DNA from: a virus
Reading direction: 5' to 3' (one strand)
Virus record (IMG/VR): IMGVR_UViG_3300035523_000016
Location: 1 to 31,546 of that record
Length of the DNA stretch: 31,546 nucleotides
Shown here: piece by piece, positions 11,411-19,991 of the stretch
How the letters are laid out: every line of letters begins with the position of its first letter
How positions within the stretch are numbered: position 1 is the first letter of the stretch
The notes under the pieces: model-generated
Databases searched by the model: none
Told to the model about the DNA's origin: nothing
What the model saw: only the letters and a program-made list of their open reading frames with translations
Made by a program: the position numbers and the translations under genes

Positions 11411-11520
11411 CAGATATCGGCCTTCATCACCTGGTGGAAGCCGACGCCGAACACGACGACCGCGGCGGCGATCACGACGATGGCGACGGACGAGCCAAGG
11501 AGCTGCAGGAAGAGGCTCAC
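11410..11520 (-). CDS. very small membrane protein, 36 aa
   Basis: The peptide (VSLFLQLLGSSVAIVVIAAA and onwards) is nearly all one hydrophobic helix, ending in HQVMKADI. The GTG start overlaps the stop of the HTH gene (GTGA), and its stop overlaps the next ATG (TGATG). That tight coupling is the main evidence for the gene. Confidence 0.5.
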   Translation of the reverse strand: MSLFLQLLGSSVAIVVIAAAVVVFGVGFHQVMKADI

Positions 11521-11702
11521 GACGCCACTTCCTCGGTGACGGGGGCCTGAGTCAGGCGGGCGATCTCGTCGGGGCTGACCCGGACGGACCCTGGAGAAAG
11601 CTTGACGACGGCCAGCCGTCCGGACTCAACCCAGCGCTCAAGAGTGCGCCGGGAGATACCCAGGATCTGGGCCGCCTCGTTCTTGGTGAGCATGTTTGCC
11701 AT
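11517..11702 (-). CDS. small HTH protein, Cro-like or excisionase
   Basis: This 61-aa protein is a single winged-helix/HTH_17-type domain (MLTKNEAAQILGISRRTLER, then a wing ending SPDEIARL), as in excisionases and MerR-like regulators. It is the first gene of the early operon and divergent from the repressor. By position it fills the Cro slot, which in integration-dependent immunity phages opposes the repressor. By fold it resembles Xis. The two roles cannot be told apart here. No ribosome site precedes the ATG at 11702, and a possible promoter (TTGACA at 11734-11739) is placed so that this ATG would be at or near the first base of the mRNA. Confidence 0.8.
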   Translation of the reverse strand: MANMLTKNEAAQILGISRRTLERWVESGRLAVVKLSPGSVRVSPDEIARLTQAPVTEEVAS

Positions 11703-11823
11703 GTCGCATACTGTCGCGCCGTGTCGTGCGACATGTCAAACATTGACGCCCTTTGGCGTGTCGTGGAAAGTCCCGTGTCGCAAGGTGTCGCTATTTGGCG
11801 CAAGCGGTGCTAACTTCGTCGCA
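11702..11823. promoter_or_regulatory. divergent early/repressor control region with phased operator boxes
   Basis: Six TGTCGY hexamers lie on the plus strand, at 11702, 11712, 11722, 11759, 11776 and 11786. The first three are spaced exactly 10 bases apart, as are the last two. At 11722-11733 the box meets an inverted CGACA, giving TGTCGTGCGACA. The minus-strand early promoter is read as TTGACA (11739-11734), an 18-base spacer and GACAGT (11715-11710), so boxes cover it. The plus-strand repressor promoter is an extended -10 (TGC TAACTT, 11808-11816) ending 6 bases before the repressor ATG. Both mRNAs would be leaderless. Promoters are inferred from sequence only. Confidence 0.65.
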
Positions 11824-12227
11824 TGACGACGCAACCGTTCGATGGGCAGCAAGCCATTCAGATGTGGGAGCTGGAGTTCACCTTCGGCGACCGGGTCCGC
11901 AAGGCGCGCCGCGTGTTGGGCCTCACCCTCGACCAGCTGGCCGAGGCGCTGAGCGTGAAGAAGCAGGTCGTTTCGCAGTGGGAGACCGGCGTCAGCAACC
12001 CGCGGTCACCTCATGCGATCGCCCGCCGCATCGAGTACGTCTACGGAATCCCGGCGTGGTGGATCCTCGGAAACGACGAAGCCCCCGCCGATATCGACGA
12101 GGGCAAGCCAGCGCGCCTGGAGGGATTCGAACCCCCAACCTTCTGGTCTGGAGTCCAGGACGACTTCGAGGACCTCGGTCCCGACCACCTCGCCCAGGTC
12201 TTCGCCTTCCCCGGAAGCCGCGCGTGA
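11823..12227 (+). CDS. immunity repressor (viral form), Cro/CI-type HTH, contains attP
   Basis: This 134-aa protein has an HTH_3 domain at about residues 21-83, with LTLDQLAEALSVKKQVVSQW as the core. It would repress the early operon across the divergent region. Codons 97-112 are the 3' half of a tRNA gene read backwards (LEGFEPPTFWSG), so attP lies inside the gene. Integration would keep about 110 residues and replace the rest with host-encoded residues. The tail present here (DDFEDLGPDHLAQVFAFPG to the end) is therefore specific to the viral form. In mycobacteriophage BPs the equivalent protein is 136 aa in virus form and shorter in the lysogen. The ATG has no ribosome site and probably begins a leaderless mRNA. 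Confidence 0.85.
   Translation: MTTQPFDGQQAIQMWELEFTFGDRVRKARRVLGLTLDQLAEALSVKKQVVSQWETGVSNPRSPHAIARRIEYVYGIPAWWILGNDEAPADIDEGKPARLEGFEPPTFWSGVQDDFEDLGPDHLAQVFAFPGSRA
12111..12158 (-). other. candidate attP core: 3' half of a tRNA gene
   Basis: The minus strand reads an anticodon loop (CTCCAGA), an intact 3' anticodon strand (CCAGA), a 5-base variable loop, a T-arm (GGGGG TTCGAAT CCCTC) and a 3' acceptor strand (CAGGCGC) with a discriminator G. The 5' half of the tRNA is missing and CCA is not encoded. Tyrosine integrases often use such tRNA halves as attachment cores, and int lies 300 bp downstream. The acceptor and T-arm look like a tRNA-Arg; the loop phase would give anticodon CCA, so the host tRNA is unresolved. 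Confidence 0.8.
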
Positions 12228-12442
12228 TGTACATCGACGAGAGCGACCGGGTCACGATCAAGTCCATCCTGGGCAGCGTCACCCGCAGCAGCCTGAAGAT
12301 CATCGACCCTGAGCTGACCAAGCTCGTGCAGGACGTCCTGGACGTATTCACGACCGACGAGGACCGCGCGCGGCTTGCTGCGATGAAGGCCCGACTCGTC
12401 GAGGTGCGCTCAGGCGCAATTCACCATTCCGAAGATCTCTAA
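12227..12442 (+). CDS. small protein coupled to the repressor, 71 aa
   Basis: This helical, charged protein (MYIDESDRVTIKSILGSV, then FTTDEDRARLAAMKARL) starts at an ATG that overlaps the repressor stop (TGATG). Its translation therefore depends on ribosomes finishing the viral-form repressor. After integration at attP it would be cut away from both repressor and promoter. It lies 21 bp before int. No family is recognised; a helper or antagonist of integrase or repressor is a hypothesis. Confidence 0.7.
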   Translation: MYIDESDRVTIKSILGSVTRSSLKIIDPELTKLVQDVLDVFTTDEDRARLAAMKARLVEVRSGAIHHSEDL

Positions 12443-12463
12443 ATCGGCAGTCGAGGTCCAGCG

Positions 12464-13318
12464 ATGCAGGTGTCAGTGGTGGGTGCCACGGTGCTGCACA
12501 TGGACCCCCGAGCAAAGTCCGTCCCACTGATGTGGCGGACTCCCCTAGCAGCATGGTTGGGCAGCCTCGTCGCTGCCGGCCAGACCCGTCAAACCGTCGA
12601 CTCCCGCCGGCAGCAGCTCAGTACCGCTGCCCGCGCGCTCGGCCCCGACCCATGGCGGGTGACGACTGACGACCTGGCCGACTACACGATGGTGCAGGAC
12701 TGGTCCCGGGAGACCCGCAGGACGAACTACGCAGCGCTCAGGGGCTTCTACCGGTGGGCGGTGCAACAAGGGCACATCGCGGAGTCCCCCGCGGCCTTCC
12801 TGCCCAGCGTGAAGGCCGCGGACCCGTGCCCACGGCCGGCGCCCGAGCTCGTCTACAACACGGCCAAGGCCTACGCCGATCGCCGGACGCTGCTGATCCT
12901 CCGCCTCGCCGGTGAGGCCGGGATGCGGCGGGCTGAAATCTGCCAGGTGCACCGCGACGACCTCACCGACGACCTGCTCGGCTGGTCCCTGATGGTGCAC
13001 GGCAAGGGCGGCAAGCTCCGCATGGTGCCACTGCCCGACGACCTGGCGATCGCCATCCGGGACGCCGGCGGATGGCTGTTCCCCGGAGATGACGCAGGAC
13101 ACCTCTCGCCGCGATGGGTGGGCAAGCTCGCCGCCCAGGCTCTCAGCGGTCGATGGACGCTGCACACCCTGCGCCACCGGTTCGCGACGAAGGCCTACGC
13201 CGGCCATGACCTGCTGGCCGTGCAGCAGCTGCTCGGGCACAGCTCGCCGGCAACGACGCAGCGCTACGTGGCCACCGACAGCCAGCGCCTACGCGCCGCG
13301 GCAGGACTCGCCAGTTGA
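12464..13318 (+). CDS. int: tyrosine integrase lacking an arm-binding domain
   Basis: The integrase inserts the phage into the host tRNA gene through a covalent tyrosine-DNA link. All catalytic residues are visible: R155 (GMRRAE), the beta-hairpin lysine in GKGGKLRMVPL, H234 and R237 (HTLRHRFAT), H259 (LLGHSS) and Y268 (TTQRYVA). A SAM-like core-binding domain spans about residues 23-108. At 284 aa it has no room for the N-terminal arm-type DNA-binding domain of lambda-like integrases, so it resembles XerC/D and the arm-less Brujita integrase. It ends in AGLAS, loosely like an ssrA degradation tag. The ATG at 12464 has GAGG upstream; M13 is the alternative. It shares the repressor mRNA in the virus, but not after integration. 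Confidence 0.95.
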   Translation: MQVSVVGATVLHMDPRAKSVPLMWRTPLAAWLGSLVAAGQTRQTVDSRRQQLSTAARALGPDPWRVTTDDLADYTMVQDWSRETRRTNYAALRGFYRWAVQQGHIAESPAAFLPSVKAADPCPRPAPELVYNTAKAYADRRTLLILRLAGEAGMRRAEICQVHRDDLTDDLLGWSLMVHGKGGKLRMVPLPDDLAIAIRDAGGWLFPGDDAGHLSPRWVGKLAAQALSGRWTLHTLRHRFATKAYAGHDLLAVQQLLGHSSPATTQRYVATDSQRLRAAAGLAS

Positions 13319-13359: not shown

Positions 13360-13983
13360 ATGAAGCGCCTCACCACCCTCGCCGCAGCGATCGCCGTGGC
13401 CGCTGGCCTCCTCTTCGGTGCCATTCCGTCGCAGGCCGTCGCGGAGGATTCACCGACCCCAACGCCTTCCGCGACGCCCACGCCTACCCCGACCGAAACG
13501 ACAGAGCCGCCGCTGGTGGTGATCCGGACGCCGTGGGTGAAGACCCTCGACCAGTGGTGCGAGGCGAGCGATGCCACGAACTTCTACTTCGGGGACGGGG
13601 CCCTCTTCGCGAAGCGCGTCTCCACCGGCGTGATCCACCGGACGCTGAACGAGTCCGGCAAGGACGTCACCGGCAGCGAGCTCGTCCTCCCGGTCGGCAG
13701 CTACGTGACGACCTTCACCGCACCCGAGGGTTCCGTCTTCGAGTCGGGCGAGGCGACCGCAATATCCCAGTCGATCATCTTCTCGGCCGATCCCTGCGGG
13801 AAGCCTGCGACCAAGGTCAAGCGCGGCGCCTGGCACATCGTCAAGATCACTGCTCATTACGTGAAGATGCGCCGAACGGTGAAGACGACCCGCTACCACG
13901 CGGTCATGAACGATGACGGTATGGCCGGGGAATGGGTCGCGAGGACCTCGGTCGCGCACCAGTCGATGAAGGTCAAGATCTGA
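13360..13983 (+). CDS. secreted protein with Thr/Pro linker, 207 aa
   Basis: A signal peptide (MKRLTTLAAAIAVAAGLLFG onwards) ends near AVAED, about residue 29. A short linker of repeated Thr/Pro/Ser residues follows, then a domain of about 160 residues with two cysteines that could pair. I do not recognise the domain. The ATG at 13360 has AAAGG upstream. It is on the same strand as int and in the lysogeny block, so it may be made in lysogens and act at the cell surface. Superinfection exclusion and lysogenic conversion are possible roles. Confidence 0.75.
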   Translation: MKRLTTLAAAIAVAAGLLFGAIPSQAVAEDSPTPTPSATPTPTPTETTEPPLVVIRTPWVKTLDQWCEASDATNFYFGDGALFAKRVSTGVIHRTLNESGKDVTGSELVLPVGSYVTTFTAPEGSVFESGEATAISQSIIFSADPCGKPATKVKRGAWHIVKITAHYVKMRRTVKTTRYHAVMNDDGMAGEWVARTSVAHQSMKVKI

Positions 13984-14124: not shown

Positions 14125-14715
14125 ATGACCCGCCCCGTTCTTGCCCTTGCCCTGCTCGTCGCCCTGGTTGGCTGTGCTGCGCCGGCACCCGCCCCGGTCG
14201 CCACCGTGACAGCCACGACGACGGCAACGGCGATCGCGGATCCGGCGGAGCCCAGCCCAACTGCGACCCCAACGGCCGAGAAGGACGCCGATGGAAACGC
14301 GCTGAAGAAAGTGGGCGAGATGGCGGCCGCGGTCGGCGAGGACGGCGTCACCTACGTGAAGTTCCGGGTGAACCGGATCGAGCCCTTCAAGTGCAACTGG
14401 TCCGGCGCGGACAAGGCGAAGAACGGCCACTACGTCGGGGTGTGGATGGAGTTCTGGACCGACAAGGCCGTCGGCGGGGACAACGTACCGGCAGTCGAGA
14501 CCGACGCTTGGCAGGTCATCGGGGCCGACGGCGTGACCGAGAACGACTCGGACGGGAACAGTGATTTCTGCGCCAACGACGCGACCGCGCTGCCCTACAC
14601 GATCGAGGGCGCCAAGCACGTCAAGGGCGTCGTTGTACTCGACATCAAGGCCAAGCACGGCGGCCTGGTCTTCACGTTCAGCGATGCAGCCACAGGCTGG
14701 CGCTACAACTTCTAG
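14125..14715 (+). CDS. lipoprotein with Ig-like (DUF4352-like) domain, 196 aa
   Basis: The N-terminus is a lipoprotein signal (MTRPVLALALLVALVGC) with lipobox LVGC, so the cysteine at residue 17 would be acylated and anchored outside the membrane. An Ala/Thr/Pro linker follows, then a beta-rich domain with paired cysteines (FKCNW and DFCAND). Its run of hydrophobic strands and closing VVVLDIKAKHGGLVFTFSD resemble DUF4352-type Ig-like domains. Phage lipoproteins in this position often block DNA entry by related phages. An alternative start at 14095 adds 10 residues before the signal. Function is inferred. Confidence 0.8.
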   Translation: MTRPVLALALLVALVGCAAPAPAPVATVTATTTATAIADPAEPSPTATPTAEKDADGNALKKVGEMAAAVGEDGVTYVKFRVNRIEPFKCNWSGADKAKNGHYVGVWMEFWTDKAVGGDNVPAVETDAWQVIGADGVTENDSDGNSDFCANDATALPYTIEGAKHVKGVVVLDIKAKHGGLVFTFSDAATGWRYNF

Positions 14716-15141: not shown

Positions 15142-16302
15142 TCAGTTGATGGTGACCGTGGGCCGGTCGTGGTCGGATGTGGTGGCGGGCACCAGCTCGC
15201 CATTGATTGCGGTGACGCGGCCCTTCTGCGCGTAGATCGCGTCCATGTGCCCGGGGCCGTCGTGGTAGCTGTCGGCGTCGGGCGTGATGCGGACGAAGGC
15301 TCGGGTTGCGAGGATCTCGTCGGGGTCCATCGCCCAGTCGCCCATCGCGATGGCTGGCCAGCGTCCGACGAGACTCACGGCACGCAGCACGTCTTCGCGC
15401 TTTCCCTTGGCAACGGCCGCATCGGTCGCGTGCTTCCCGAAGGCGTCGCGCGGACGGGTGTGGTTGACGATGAAGTCGCGGCCCTTGCCGGCCCGATCTC
15501 GCAGCGGGACGCAGATCGCGCCGTGGTAGTGGTCTCCGTGCGACTTCTGCCGGATGCCGCTCGAGGCGAACAGCGCACTGTCGTAGGCCAGCGCGACCGC
15601 ACCATCGACGTGCACGAACATGCGCCACGAGGCGCCGAGGGCGGCAAGGATCGCCTTGCGCATCTCGGGTGTGGTCTCGGTCAGGCCGATGACCCCAGCG
15701 CCCGTGGTGGCCAGCTCTGTGCCCCGTGCCGCGTAGTTGGTCGATCCGCCGAAGCGCGGGGACTCCTGCGATGCCATGACGACCTTGATGGGCTCCACGA
15801 TCGCCGGGGGCTTCGGTTCGGCAGGCGGGAGGAGCAGCGAGACCCACCCGCGAGGACGCATGTAGAGATCGCGGATCCGGCCCTCGTTGCCGGTCTGGTC
15901 GCCGGGCTTCCCGCCAGACTCCTTGCCGCGCTCGTCGGACTCGAAGCTGACGATCTTGCCGCCACCGATACCGACGACGACATGACCAGGCCCGACGAGA
16001 GCTGAGCCTGCGACGACATTCTTGGTGAGCCAGGCGAGTGACTTCCCGGAGGCCCTGACCAGAGTGAAGCCGGCGGCCACGAGACGGCTCGCGATGTTGC
16101 CGGTGTAGAAGGTGCCGGTGAGGTCCACCGGGTAGCCGGCCATCTTGAAGATGACGCCGGTGGAGCTCGAGCAATCGAAGGCTCCGGGCTGGTGCAGGCG
16201 GCCGTTCTGGTAGCCGCTCCAGCGGTCACCCTGCGAATAGCCGAAGTCCCCGTTGGCGATGGTCTTGGCGATGGCGACTGCTGTGGCGATGGTTCCGGGC
16301 AT
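15142..16302 (-). CDS. endolysin with C-terminal EEP-fold domain
   Basis: The N-terminal half (about residues 1-155) is an NlpC/P60- or CHAP-like cysteine peptidase, with C44 in AFDCSSSTGVIF and H107 in GPGHVVVGIGG. It would cut peptidoglycan peptides. After a Pro-rich linker (160-170), residues 172-386 look like an endonuclease/exonuclease/phosphatase domain. Its motifs appear in order: IGLTET (E209), IVNHTRP (H281), IAMGDWAMDP (D322), GHMDAIYA and TTSDHDRPTV (D377, H378). The usual GDxN asparagine is an alanine here. Phage lysins normally carry a wall-binding domain in this position. The ATG at 16302 lies just upstream of the holin gene, giving a lysis cassette. Confidence 0.85.
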   Translation of the reverse strand: MPGTIATAVAIAKTIANGDFGYSQGDRWSGYQNGRLHQPGAFDCSSSTGVIFKMAGYPVDLTGTFYTGNIASRLVAAGFTLVRASGKSLAWLTKNVVAGSALVGPGHVVVGIGGGKIVSFESDERGKESGGKPGDQTGNEGRIRDLYMRPRGWVSLLLPPAEPKPPAIVEPIKVVMASQESPRFGGSTNYAARGTELATTGAGVIGLTETTPEMRKAILAALGASWRMFVHVDGAVALAYDSALFASSGIRQKSHGDHYHGAICVPLRDRAGKGRDFIVNHTRPRDAFGKHATDAAVAKGKREDVLRAVSLVGRWPAIAMGDWAMDPDEILATRAFVRITPDADSYHDGPGHMDAIYAQKGRVTAINGELVPATTSDHDRPTVTIN

Positions 16303-18194: not shown

Positions 18195-19991
18195 TCAGGC
18201 GGCGACGAAGTTGCCGGCGTCGAGGACGCCGTAGGTAGCGTCATCGAGGGTGAAGGCGTAGGAGTCGATATCGGGGCTGAGCTTGAAGGTGATCACCCAT
18301 TGCGTGTGATCGATCGTCACGTCACGACCCTCGACGAACTCCAGCAGTGAGGCCGGCATGAAGGCGAGGCCCGGTGTCAGGGTCAGCCTCGTCCCAGGGA
18401 TCGCCGCACACAGCGCCGCCCTCTGCGCATCTGTCAGGAGTGGATGCAGCAGGTTCACCGAGGCCGTCGGGCACCTGGCGCCGCCGAAAGCGTGAGTCAC
18501 CTTCCAGTCGGCGAACGCGCGATCGAGCGCCCTGCTGGCATGGACCCCCTCGAGGGCCAGCGTCTTGCGATCGCCATCAGGGCGGGTCGCGGTGTAGCCG
18601 GTCCCATCTGCCCACGTGGTTGTGGCATCCGAGCACCAGCCGGCAGAGTCGTTCCGCCAGCCGAGGTCGTTGAGCAGCGTCCCTGCCGGCACCGGCACCG
18701 GGGTCGTGGTCGGCGCGAACGGAATCCATGCGAGCGTTCCATCGTGCTTGTCGACCAGACGGGCACCCATGCCATCGACGAGCGCGCTCATCGCCTCGGC
18801 AGCATCCCGGCCTTCGAGCAGCGGGAGCGTTGTTTCCCCCGCGGTCAGCCCGGAGATTGCCGGAGCGCCGGCGAAGTCCGCAAGCATCACCACGGCCGAA
18901 CTGGCAACCGGGGTGCGCGGACCGAGGAGGGCGATTGCTGCCGCGGTGGTGTCCGTGGCGTCGGCGTACCGGTCGGTGATCACCTGGAGATTGCCGAGGC
19001 TGAACTGTGCGCCGCCCGTCAGGGTCGGGTTCACCACGAGATTCAGTGGCGGCTCAGGGAAGGGGCCGACCGAGGCCGGTTCGATATAGAAGCCGGCGCC
19101 CGTGCCGTCCCCGAACGTGATTCGCTCGTAGTAGAGGCTCAGGTTGAGGCGGAAGGAGATCTCGACCAGGACGGGCCAGACGGTTGGCTTGAACACCGTC
19201 GAGCTTCCGAATGCATACAGCCCGATCGTGGGGTCCCAGGAGAGCGTGAATGCGCTGCAGGACAGCAGCACGCACGCCGCGGTGGGCTGGGAGTAGAGGA
19301 CGAAGCGCACCATCCACTTCTTCTGCACGCCGGCGGGGAGCCCCAGTGCGCCCGTGGTGAGCTTGAGCCCACCGACTGCCGACTTGAACAGCGGATGCTG
19401 GTCCGTGCCCTCCTCCATCGGCAGCAGCGTGGATGTCCCGCCAGCCCAGCCGGCAGCGCCGTTGTCGGTGATCCCGACGCTTCCTACCTGCTGCTTGGCA
19501 GGGCTTTGGGTGTCGCGCAGCGGCCAGTAGTTGGCGATCCCGGCCGTGTTCCGCACGACCTCGTCAGCAGCCTGCCGAAGCGTGTAGGCCGGGAATGCCC
19601 CGAGGGTGTCGCTGGCGCTTACCCGGCAGACCGCAGCCTTGCCGGTCGGGTCATTGACGGAGTCGGCGGACCAGGACTGGATCTTGCCCTGAAACAGCAC
19701 CTGCCATGCGCTGTTGACCCATCCCGAGACCCGCAGGCCTGCACCGGGGTTGACGTTCGGGTAGTAGACCGAGGTGGACAGGTTCGGGCTGAACCGGCCA
19801 TCCGAGTTGTCGAGGACAAGGCTGCAGGTTCCAACCGAGATGGCGTCGCCGGTCTCGTTCTCCTTGCCCTCGCTGATGCTGACGCCCTGGGCAAGCCGAA
19901 GGTAGTCCTTCACCCCACCAGTGCCAGCGGAGTTCGTAACCTCCACCCATGCACCGGTGAAGTTGATCTCTACCTTCAGCTTCGGACTCAT
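18195..19991 (-). CDS. minor tail protein, 598 aa
   Basis: The first 100 residues (CSLVLDNSDGRFSPN, SVYYPNVNPGAGLRVSG) match the start of actinophage tail-tip proteins that combine distal-tail and baseplate-hub functions. The middle has a Trp/Gly-rich segment that could be a concanavalin-like fold, and the C-terminal part (LLEGRDAAEAMSALVDGMGA, VTIDHTQWVITFKLSP) resembles the hub. It is the only large tail-tip gene between tape measure and spike, so the tip is simple. ATGA overlap with the tape measure. Confidence 0.85.
   Translation of the reverse strand: MSPKLKVEINFTGAWVEVTNSAGTGGVKDYLRLAQGVSISEGKENETGDAISVGTCSLVLDNSDGRFSPNLSTSVYYPNVNPGAGLRVSGWVNSAWQVLFQGKIQSWSADSVNDPTGKAAVCRVSASDTLGAFPAYTLRQAADEVVRNTAGIANYWPLRDTQSPAKQQVGSVGITDNGAAGWAGGTSTLLPMEEGTDQHPLFKSAVGGLKLTTGALGLPAGVQKKWMVRFVLYSQPTAACVLLSCSAFTLSWDPTIGLYAFGSSTVFKPTVWPVLVEISFRLNLSLYYERITFGDGTGAGFYIEPASVGPFPEPPLNLVVNPTLTGGAQFSLGNLQVITDRYADATDTTAAAIALLGPRTPVASSAVVMLADFAGAPAISGLTAGETTLPLLEGRDAAEAMSALVDGMGARLVDKHDGTLAWIPFAPTTTPVPVPAGTLLNDLGWRNDSAGWCSDATTTWADGTGYTATRPDGDRKTLALEGVHASRALDRAFADWKVTHAFGGARCPTASVNLLHPLLTDAQRAALCAAIPGTRLTLTPGLAFMPASLLEFVEGRDVTIDHTQWVITFKLSPDIDSYAFTLDDATYGVLDAGNFVAA

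Follow-up and report, generated by a model that had tools for sequence, protein, structure and literature searches.

A probable BPs-type integration-dependent immunity module at tRNA-Arg(ACG) in an uncultured phage

Organization of the immunity region

The window analysed here is the whole 31,546-nucleotide stretch of the virus record IMGVR_UViG_3300035523_000016. Its immunity region (Table 1) comprises a repressor gene, a 71-aa ORF and a tyrosine integrase gene, which lie on one strand and either overlap or are 21 bp apart, and a divergent excisionase-like gene. Between 11400 and 14200 nothing resembling a terminator was detected, and the three genes may be co-transcribed.

Table 1. Features of the immunity region, in positions of the window.
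Feature	Position	Strand	Basis
Divergent HTH_17 / excisionase-like gene, 61 aa, Cro/Xis position	11517-11702	-	Domain/family matches
Candidate operator region with seven half-sites of sequence TGTCG and, at 11722, one perfect palindrome, TGTCGTGCGACA	11700-11800	.	Motif count
Repressor gene, viral form, 134 aa	11823-12227	+	HTH_3 and phrog_2328 matches
35-bp attP common core, covering in antisense the T-arm, acceptor 3' strand and discriminator (3' half) of tRNA-Arg(ACG)	12111-12145	-	Identity to intact tRNAs
Virus-only repressor tail, 27 aa (residues 108-134), WSGVQDDFEDLGPDHLAQVFAFPGSRA, presumed degradation signal	12144-12224	+	Tail survey
Switch codon 108, TGG (Trp) in the virus, predicted TGA (stop) after integration	12144-12146	+	In-silico attL
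71-aa ORF, start overlapping the repressor stop (TGATG)	12227-12442	+	Between repressor and integrase
Tyrosine integrase, 284 aa, ends -GLAS	12464-13318	+	Phage_integrase, E 1e-18

The N-terminal HTH of the repressor spans residues ~21-70 (HTH_3, E 6.4e-8 in a domain search), and residues 11-112, which take in the HTH and the core region, match the 'transcriptional repressor' family phrog_2328 (E 1.1e-19). The same family includes the repressors of the mycobacteriophages Angel, of the BPs group (E 3e-41), and Typha (E 1e-34), so that homologues are found in the phages bearing this type of switch, where the original prediction had proposed to look for them. These matches, together with that of the integrase to Phage_integrase, also bear out its description of a 134-aa repressor followed by a tyrosine integrase on the same strand. 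The integrase gene is intact, with the catalytic R, K, H, R, H and Y conserved across eight aligned relatives; the match of its product to Phage_int_SAM_1 starts at about residue 41, the N-terminal ~20 residues are poorly conserved, and an arm-type domain is probably absent. Integrases of members using the same tRNA-Arg core are 45-56% identical, and the protein may, like the viral repressor, be unstable. The original prediction does not include the 71-aa ORF, for which searches of Pfam, PHROGs and phage genomes gave no relatives; genes interposed between the repressor and the integrase have already been described in such systems (PMC8092301; PMC5559632).

The intergenic region holds seven TGTCG half-sites in 130 bp, whereas the window as a whole has 94 (Poisson p ~2e-7, or ~4e-5 once the number of such intervals is allowed for). 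Angel has CGACA-TG-TGTCG at the position equivalent to the candidate operator, and the predicted BPs operator site is CGACATATGTCG (PMC4557955), which, as a consensus observation only, points to an operator type common to the window, Angel and BPs.

Genes for a RecT-like annealing protein and a phage exonuclease (8810-11252) adjoin the immunity region. Downstream of the integrase, on the + strand, lie secreted-protein-like and lipoprotein-like genes with signal-like N-termini (13360-13983 and ~14125-14715), which could be expressed by the prophage, for example in exclusion, and the protein encoded at 15142-16302 combines an endolysin-like domain (ELLD, E 8e-20) with a C-terminal half that weakly resembles endonuclease/exonuclease/phosphatase proteins. 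A tRNA-Ser(GCT) called by ARAGORN at 19367-19456, inside the tail-region ORF 18195-19991, is probably a false positive because Rfam does not report it.

The attP core and its counterpart in bacterial genomes

The tRNA-derived stretch in the repressor gene is real and far beyond chance. A search confined to the bases that attP and attB have in common found, in two genomes of the order of Tessaracoccus (G601 and G624; loci L119 and L120), an intact tRNA-Arg(ACG) whose 3' end agrees with the core in all 35 bp, the uncommon acceptor strand CAGGCGC included. Rfam and ARAGORN report no half tRNA in the repressor, as expected for a fragment. The agreement breaks off after position 12145, where the next base is G in attP and A in attB and the following ones match only partially (CCAGAAGG in attP only, TCAGAAGG in the host). 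The core, first given as 48 bases, is therefore 35 bp long, a length shared with the published core of BPs (PMC9262239), and the tRNA part runs from codon 97 to the second base of codon 108 rather than over codons 97-112. Patterns extending beyond the core into attP-only bases had no exact match (40 bp in viral contigs, 34 bp in genome contigs), and the core pattern itself had none in the class of Mycetocola (395 genomes) or in its family (300 genomes). The proposal to look in genomes for the core and for a lysogen has thus yielded an exact attB in G601 and G624, but no lysogen of the window's phage. The host is placed only through the tRNA match, which points to the order of Tessaracoccus. 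In a genus mate of G601, a sibling prophage sits at tRNA-Lys, which does not identify the host of the window's phage.

The same tRNA-derived element is present in the repressors of seven further loci (L002, L005, L006, L010, L013, L014 and L015). Such cores, set in the same frame of the repressor, occur in at least nine related phages, among them Angel, Typha, UmaThurman and the uncultured phages L005, L006, L010 and L013, and more diverged versions occur in Barebow and Brevibacterium AGM1. The repressor, integrase and core have homologues in BPs-group mycobacteriophages and in Gordonia, Curtobacterium and uncultured phages, and throughout these the core is read in one frame, [VA]R.[EK]G[FL]EP.TF, which in the window gives ARLEGFEPPTF (residues 97-107). 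Repressors of described members are 28-36% identical to that of the window; nevertheless, G101, E103, P104 and T106 are invariant in an alignment of ten such repressors, and the reading frame of the core is therefore conserved. In Arcanobacterium ihumii (L030/L102), the core inside the repressor lies at a tRNA-Met gene, not tRNA-Arg, and the G-F-E-P-x-T frame through the antisense T-arm is kept despite the different tRNA; the peptide encoded by the T-arm thus seems to mark these repressors generally, whichever tRNA is used.

That the resemblance arose by chance, or that an assembly artefact joined a tRNA fragment to the repressor ORF, has a negligible probability: no point was found in its favour, and it is refuted by homologues, the same junction and frame being present in Angel, Typha, UmaThurman and Barebow, independent phages that have been isolated and sequenced. 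The stretch might also be the relic of an ancestral att site in a phage that integrates elsewhere or not at all, its repressor being of an ordinary CI type. Such a history would fit with the lack of a recovered lysogen of the window's phage, with the many relatives in the integrase survey that use tRNAs other than tRNA-Arg, and with the Brevibacterium AGM phages, which retain the repressor with an integrase remnant of only 65 aa. We consider it very improbable, since the integrase is intact with all catalytic residues present, the viral switch codon avoids TGA, and the 35/35 identity to an extant tRNA, including its unusual CAGGCGC acceptor, argues for current selection or recent exchange.

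Predicted effect of integration on the repressor

The reading preferred here is a BPs-type integration-dependent switch. In the free virus, the repressor would carry the 27-residue virus-only tail and would presumably be unstable or inactive, until the integrase, expressed from the same operon, recombines the attP core with the 3' end of the host tRNA-Arg(ACG). In G601 and G624, attB overlaps the 3' end of this tRNA, which the core would restore in the prophage, where the repressor frame would read through the core into the antisense tRNA. Since the host contributes an A directly after the core, in place of the G of attP, codon 108 would become a stop and translation would end at once. Joining attP and attB in silico gives a 107-aa repressor, MTTQ...ARLEGFEPPTF, in place of the roughly 110 residues expected at first, and the viral tail is removed rather than replaced, since the TGA follows the core immediately. 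The stable 107-aa form would then shut the divergent early promoter, and the tail, the 71-aa ORF and the integrase would have moved to the opposite prophage end, separated from the promoter of the repressor.

This prediction agrees with the published prophage form of the Angel repressor, gp33-103. The Angel codon equivalent to codon 108 is the stop point of gp33-103 (PMC9262239), and the Angel repressor through EPPTF is exactly 103 aa long (PMC4557955, PMC9262239), the equivalent in the window being 107 aa. In BPs, the host base converts a Cys codon to a stop (PMC9262239).

Lysogens of related phages

Scanning with an integrase profile gave 80 loci, almost all of them from Actinobacteria; when members of the repressor family were sought in twelve of the genomes concerned, the other att half was found in several. 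In Mycetocola reblochoni, the attL repressor ends VVRPEGLEPPTF before its stop (EGLEPPTF, stop), and attR, on the same contig, encodes CSVVRTVADCQVIWAAADAAQGTYA and a stop, followed by the integrase. Gulosibacter hominis has a truncated repressor ending ARPKGLEPLTF and a virus-only tail ending CSGVSQLRRVA, each followed by a stop, with the two halves on two contigs. In both lysogens the repressor is truncated as predicted, and the virus-only tail and then the integrase stand at attR; truncated repressors of related lysogens are overlapped in antisense by an intact tRNA-Arg(ACG). At several attR sites, host DNA just before the core can fold into a terminator-like hairpin, and the integrase would therefore be cut off from upstream transcription, including that from the repressor promoter. 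The position of the integrase in these lysogens and the hairpins support the original suggestion that integration separates int from this promoter. Three loci (L018, L022 and L024) were not counted as support, as their attR copy already has TTCTGA and a simple BPs-type tail is not visible.

The virus-only tail

The viral tails of members with a tRNA-Arg-type core share the nature of their last residues. A or S is last in 20 of 20, compared with 25% of background ORFs (p ~1e-12), and 16 of the 20 end in AA, VA or AS, compared with 7% (p ~5e-16), these p values treating as independent tails that, being related sequences, are not. The window's tail, ending -FAFPGSRA, follows the first rule and departs from the second, and it alone among the 20 has R before the last residue. 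Many of the tails also have a V-I/L-x-L/F-P-type motif before the A/S end (AEVIQLMPRR, ADVIPLAGRRA, AQVFAFPGSRA), which may be a second conserved tail element.

The original prediction had pointed out that the tail has no clear LAA tag. This holds, as the tail ends -SRA, but it does not amount to a real departure from BPs-type systems: given the A/S ends in all 20 tails and the -KAS end of Angel, a close relative of BPs, -SRA falls within the known range of variation. BPs itself is described as lacking a typical ssrA-like tag, and the M. abscessus MabC/N/O/H prophages have non-AA tails, for which other proteolysis signals are presumed (PMC8092301). Because the window's tail ends -SRA and not AA, VA or AS, its degradation signal is nonetheless uncertain. 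An unlikely variant is that the tail is not ssrA-like and that the viral repressor is kept inactive through another protease or adaptor, or through the 71-aa protein, lost on integration, in a two-part switch.

It is about as doubtful that the tail, though removed by integration, does not serve as a degradation signal at all, the 134-aa form being stable and its tail acting otherwise, for example by blocking oligomerisation or altering promoter activation. The -SRA rather than -AA end is compatible with such a role, as is the possible contribution of the 33-residue BPs tail to Prep activation (PMC4557955). Its probability is lowered by the A/S end common to the 20 homologous tails, by the conserved loss of the tail on integration and by the non-AA tails of BPs and M. 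abscessus mentioned above.

Comparison with known systems

The closest described counterpart is the integration-dependent immunity cassette of the cluster G phages BPs and Angel (Broussard et al. 2013; PMC4557955; PMC9262239). As in those phages, attP lies inside the repressor ORF with a 35-bp tRNA-Arg core in the same frame, the integrase follows downstream on the same strand, an HTH/RDF gene is divergent, the candidate operator half-sites are of the TGTCG type, and the host base would create a stop right after EPPTF. The viral and prophage repressors are 136 and 103 aa long in BPs/Angel, against 134 and a predicted 107 aa in the window. The window differs in that its repressor is 28% identical, its switch codon is TGG (Trp) instead of TGT (Cys), its tail ends -SRA instead of -KAS, an extra 71-aa ORF stands between repressor and integrase, and the attP/attB core is perfect where that of BPs has two mismatches.

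Mycobacterium phage Typha (75.7 kb; repressor gp53, integrase gp52), the top-scoring DNA match among the matches listed, over core plus integrase, has the same core, frame and order of repressor then integrase, but its tail ends -GAVA, the 71-aa ORF is absent and its genome is of another size. For the Gordonia phages UmaThurman, Twister6 and Wizard (attB-2, tRNA-Arg), integration-dependent immunity at tRNA-Arg has likewise been predicted (PMC5559632); the UmaThurman repressor is the best-scoring one among isolated phages (tblastn, 40% over 97 aa), although the tail ends -QIPA and host and genome differ. The closest integrase found (56%) belongs to IMGVR_UViG_3300027985_000382 (L006), which at 31.2 kb is similar in size and agrees in core and frame, whereas its repressor is 32% identical, its tail ends -GIVA and its integrase -GSAA. 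Brevibacterium phage AGM1 resembles the window in its repressor (33-35%), an overlapping 71-aa ORF, an integrase remnant and a divergent excisionase, and differs in the length of the integrase, only 65 aa, a different tRNA core and a tail ending -DAK; its 71-aa ORF (L016 2965-3180) has the same length and position as that of the window but is not recognisably homologous. The AGM1 region (L016, 2501-3416), with a tRNA core embedded in the repressor and the remnant of the integrase, looks as if the switch had been broken in a change to virulence.

Standing and significance

We put the probability that the window encodes a BPs-type integration-dependent immunity module at tRNA-Arg(ACG), switching the repressor from 134 to 107 aa, at about 0.93. 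This reading, which upholds the central claim of the original prediction, is drawn from sequence comparison: the layout and gene order, the homology, the conserved frame, the perfect 35-bp attB, the predicted stop and the same rearrangement, with truncated repressors, in related lysogens all argue for it. Degradation of the viral form and the activity of the 107-aa form in immunity would follow the pattern of the described systems.

The mechanism is already known and has been published for mycobacteriophages, Gordonia phages, Bifidobacterium prophages and M. abscessus prophages, and the understanding of phage immunity is unchanged by the window's module. What it offers is an exact prediction, from 134 to 107 aa by a change of TGG to TGA, together with a compact module for integration that might be used as a genetic tool in the order of Tessaracoccus. 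It extends a known lysogeny switch to an uncultured phage matching a tRNA gene of that order, and the survey, across which the core frame and the A/S tail end are conserved, suggests that the switch is widespread in Actinobacteria, including Mycetocola, Gulosibacter, Cryobacterium, Nakamurella, Nocardia, Rhodococcoides and others.
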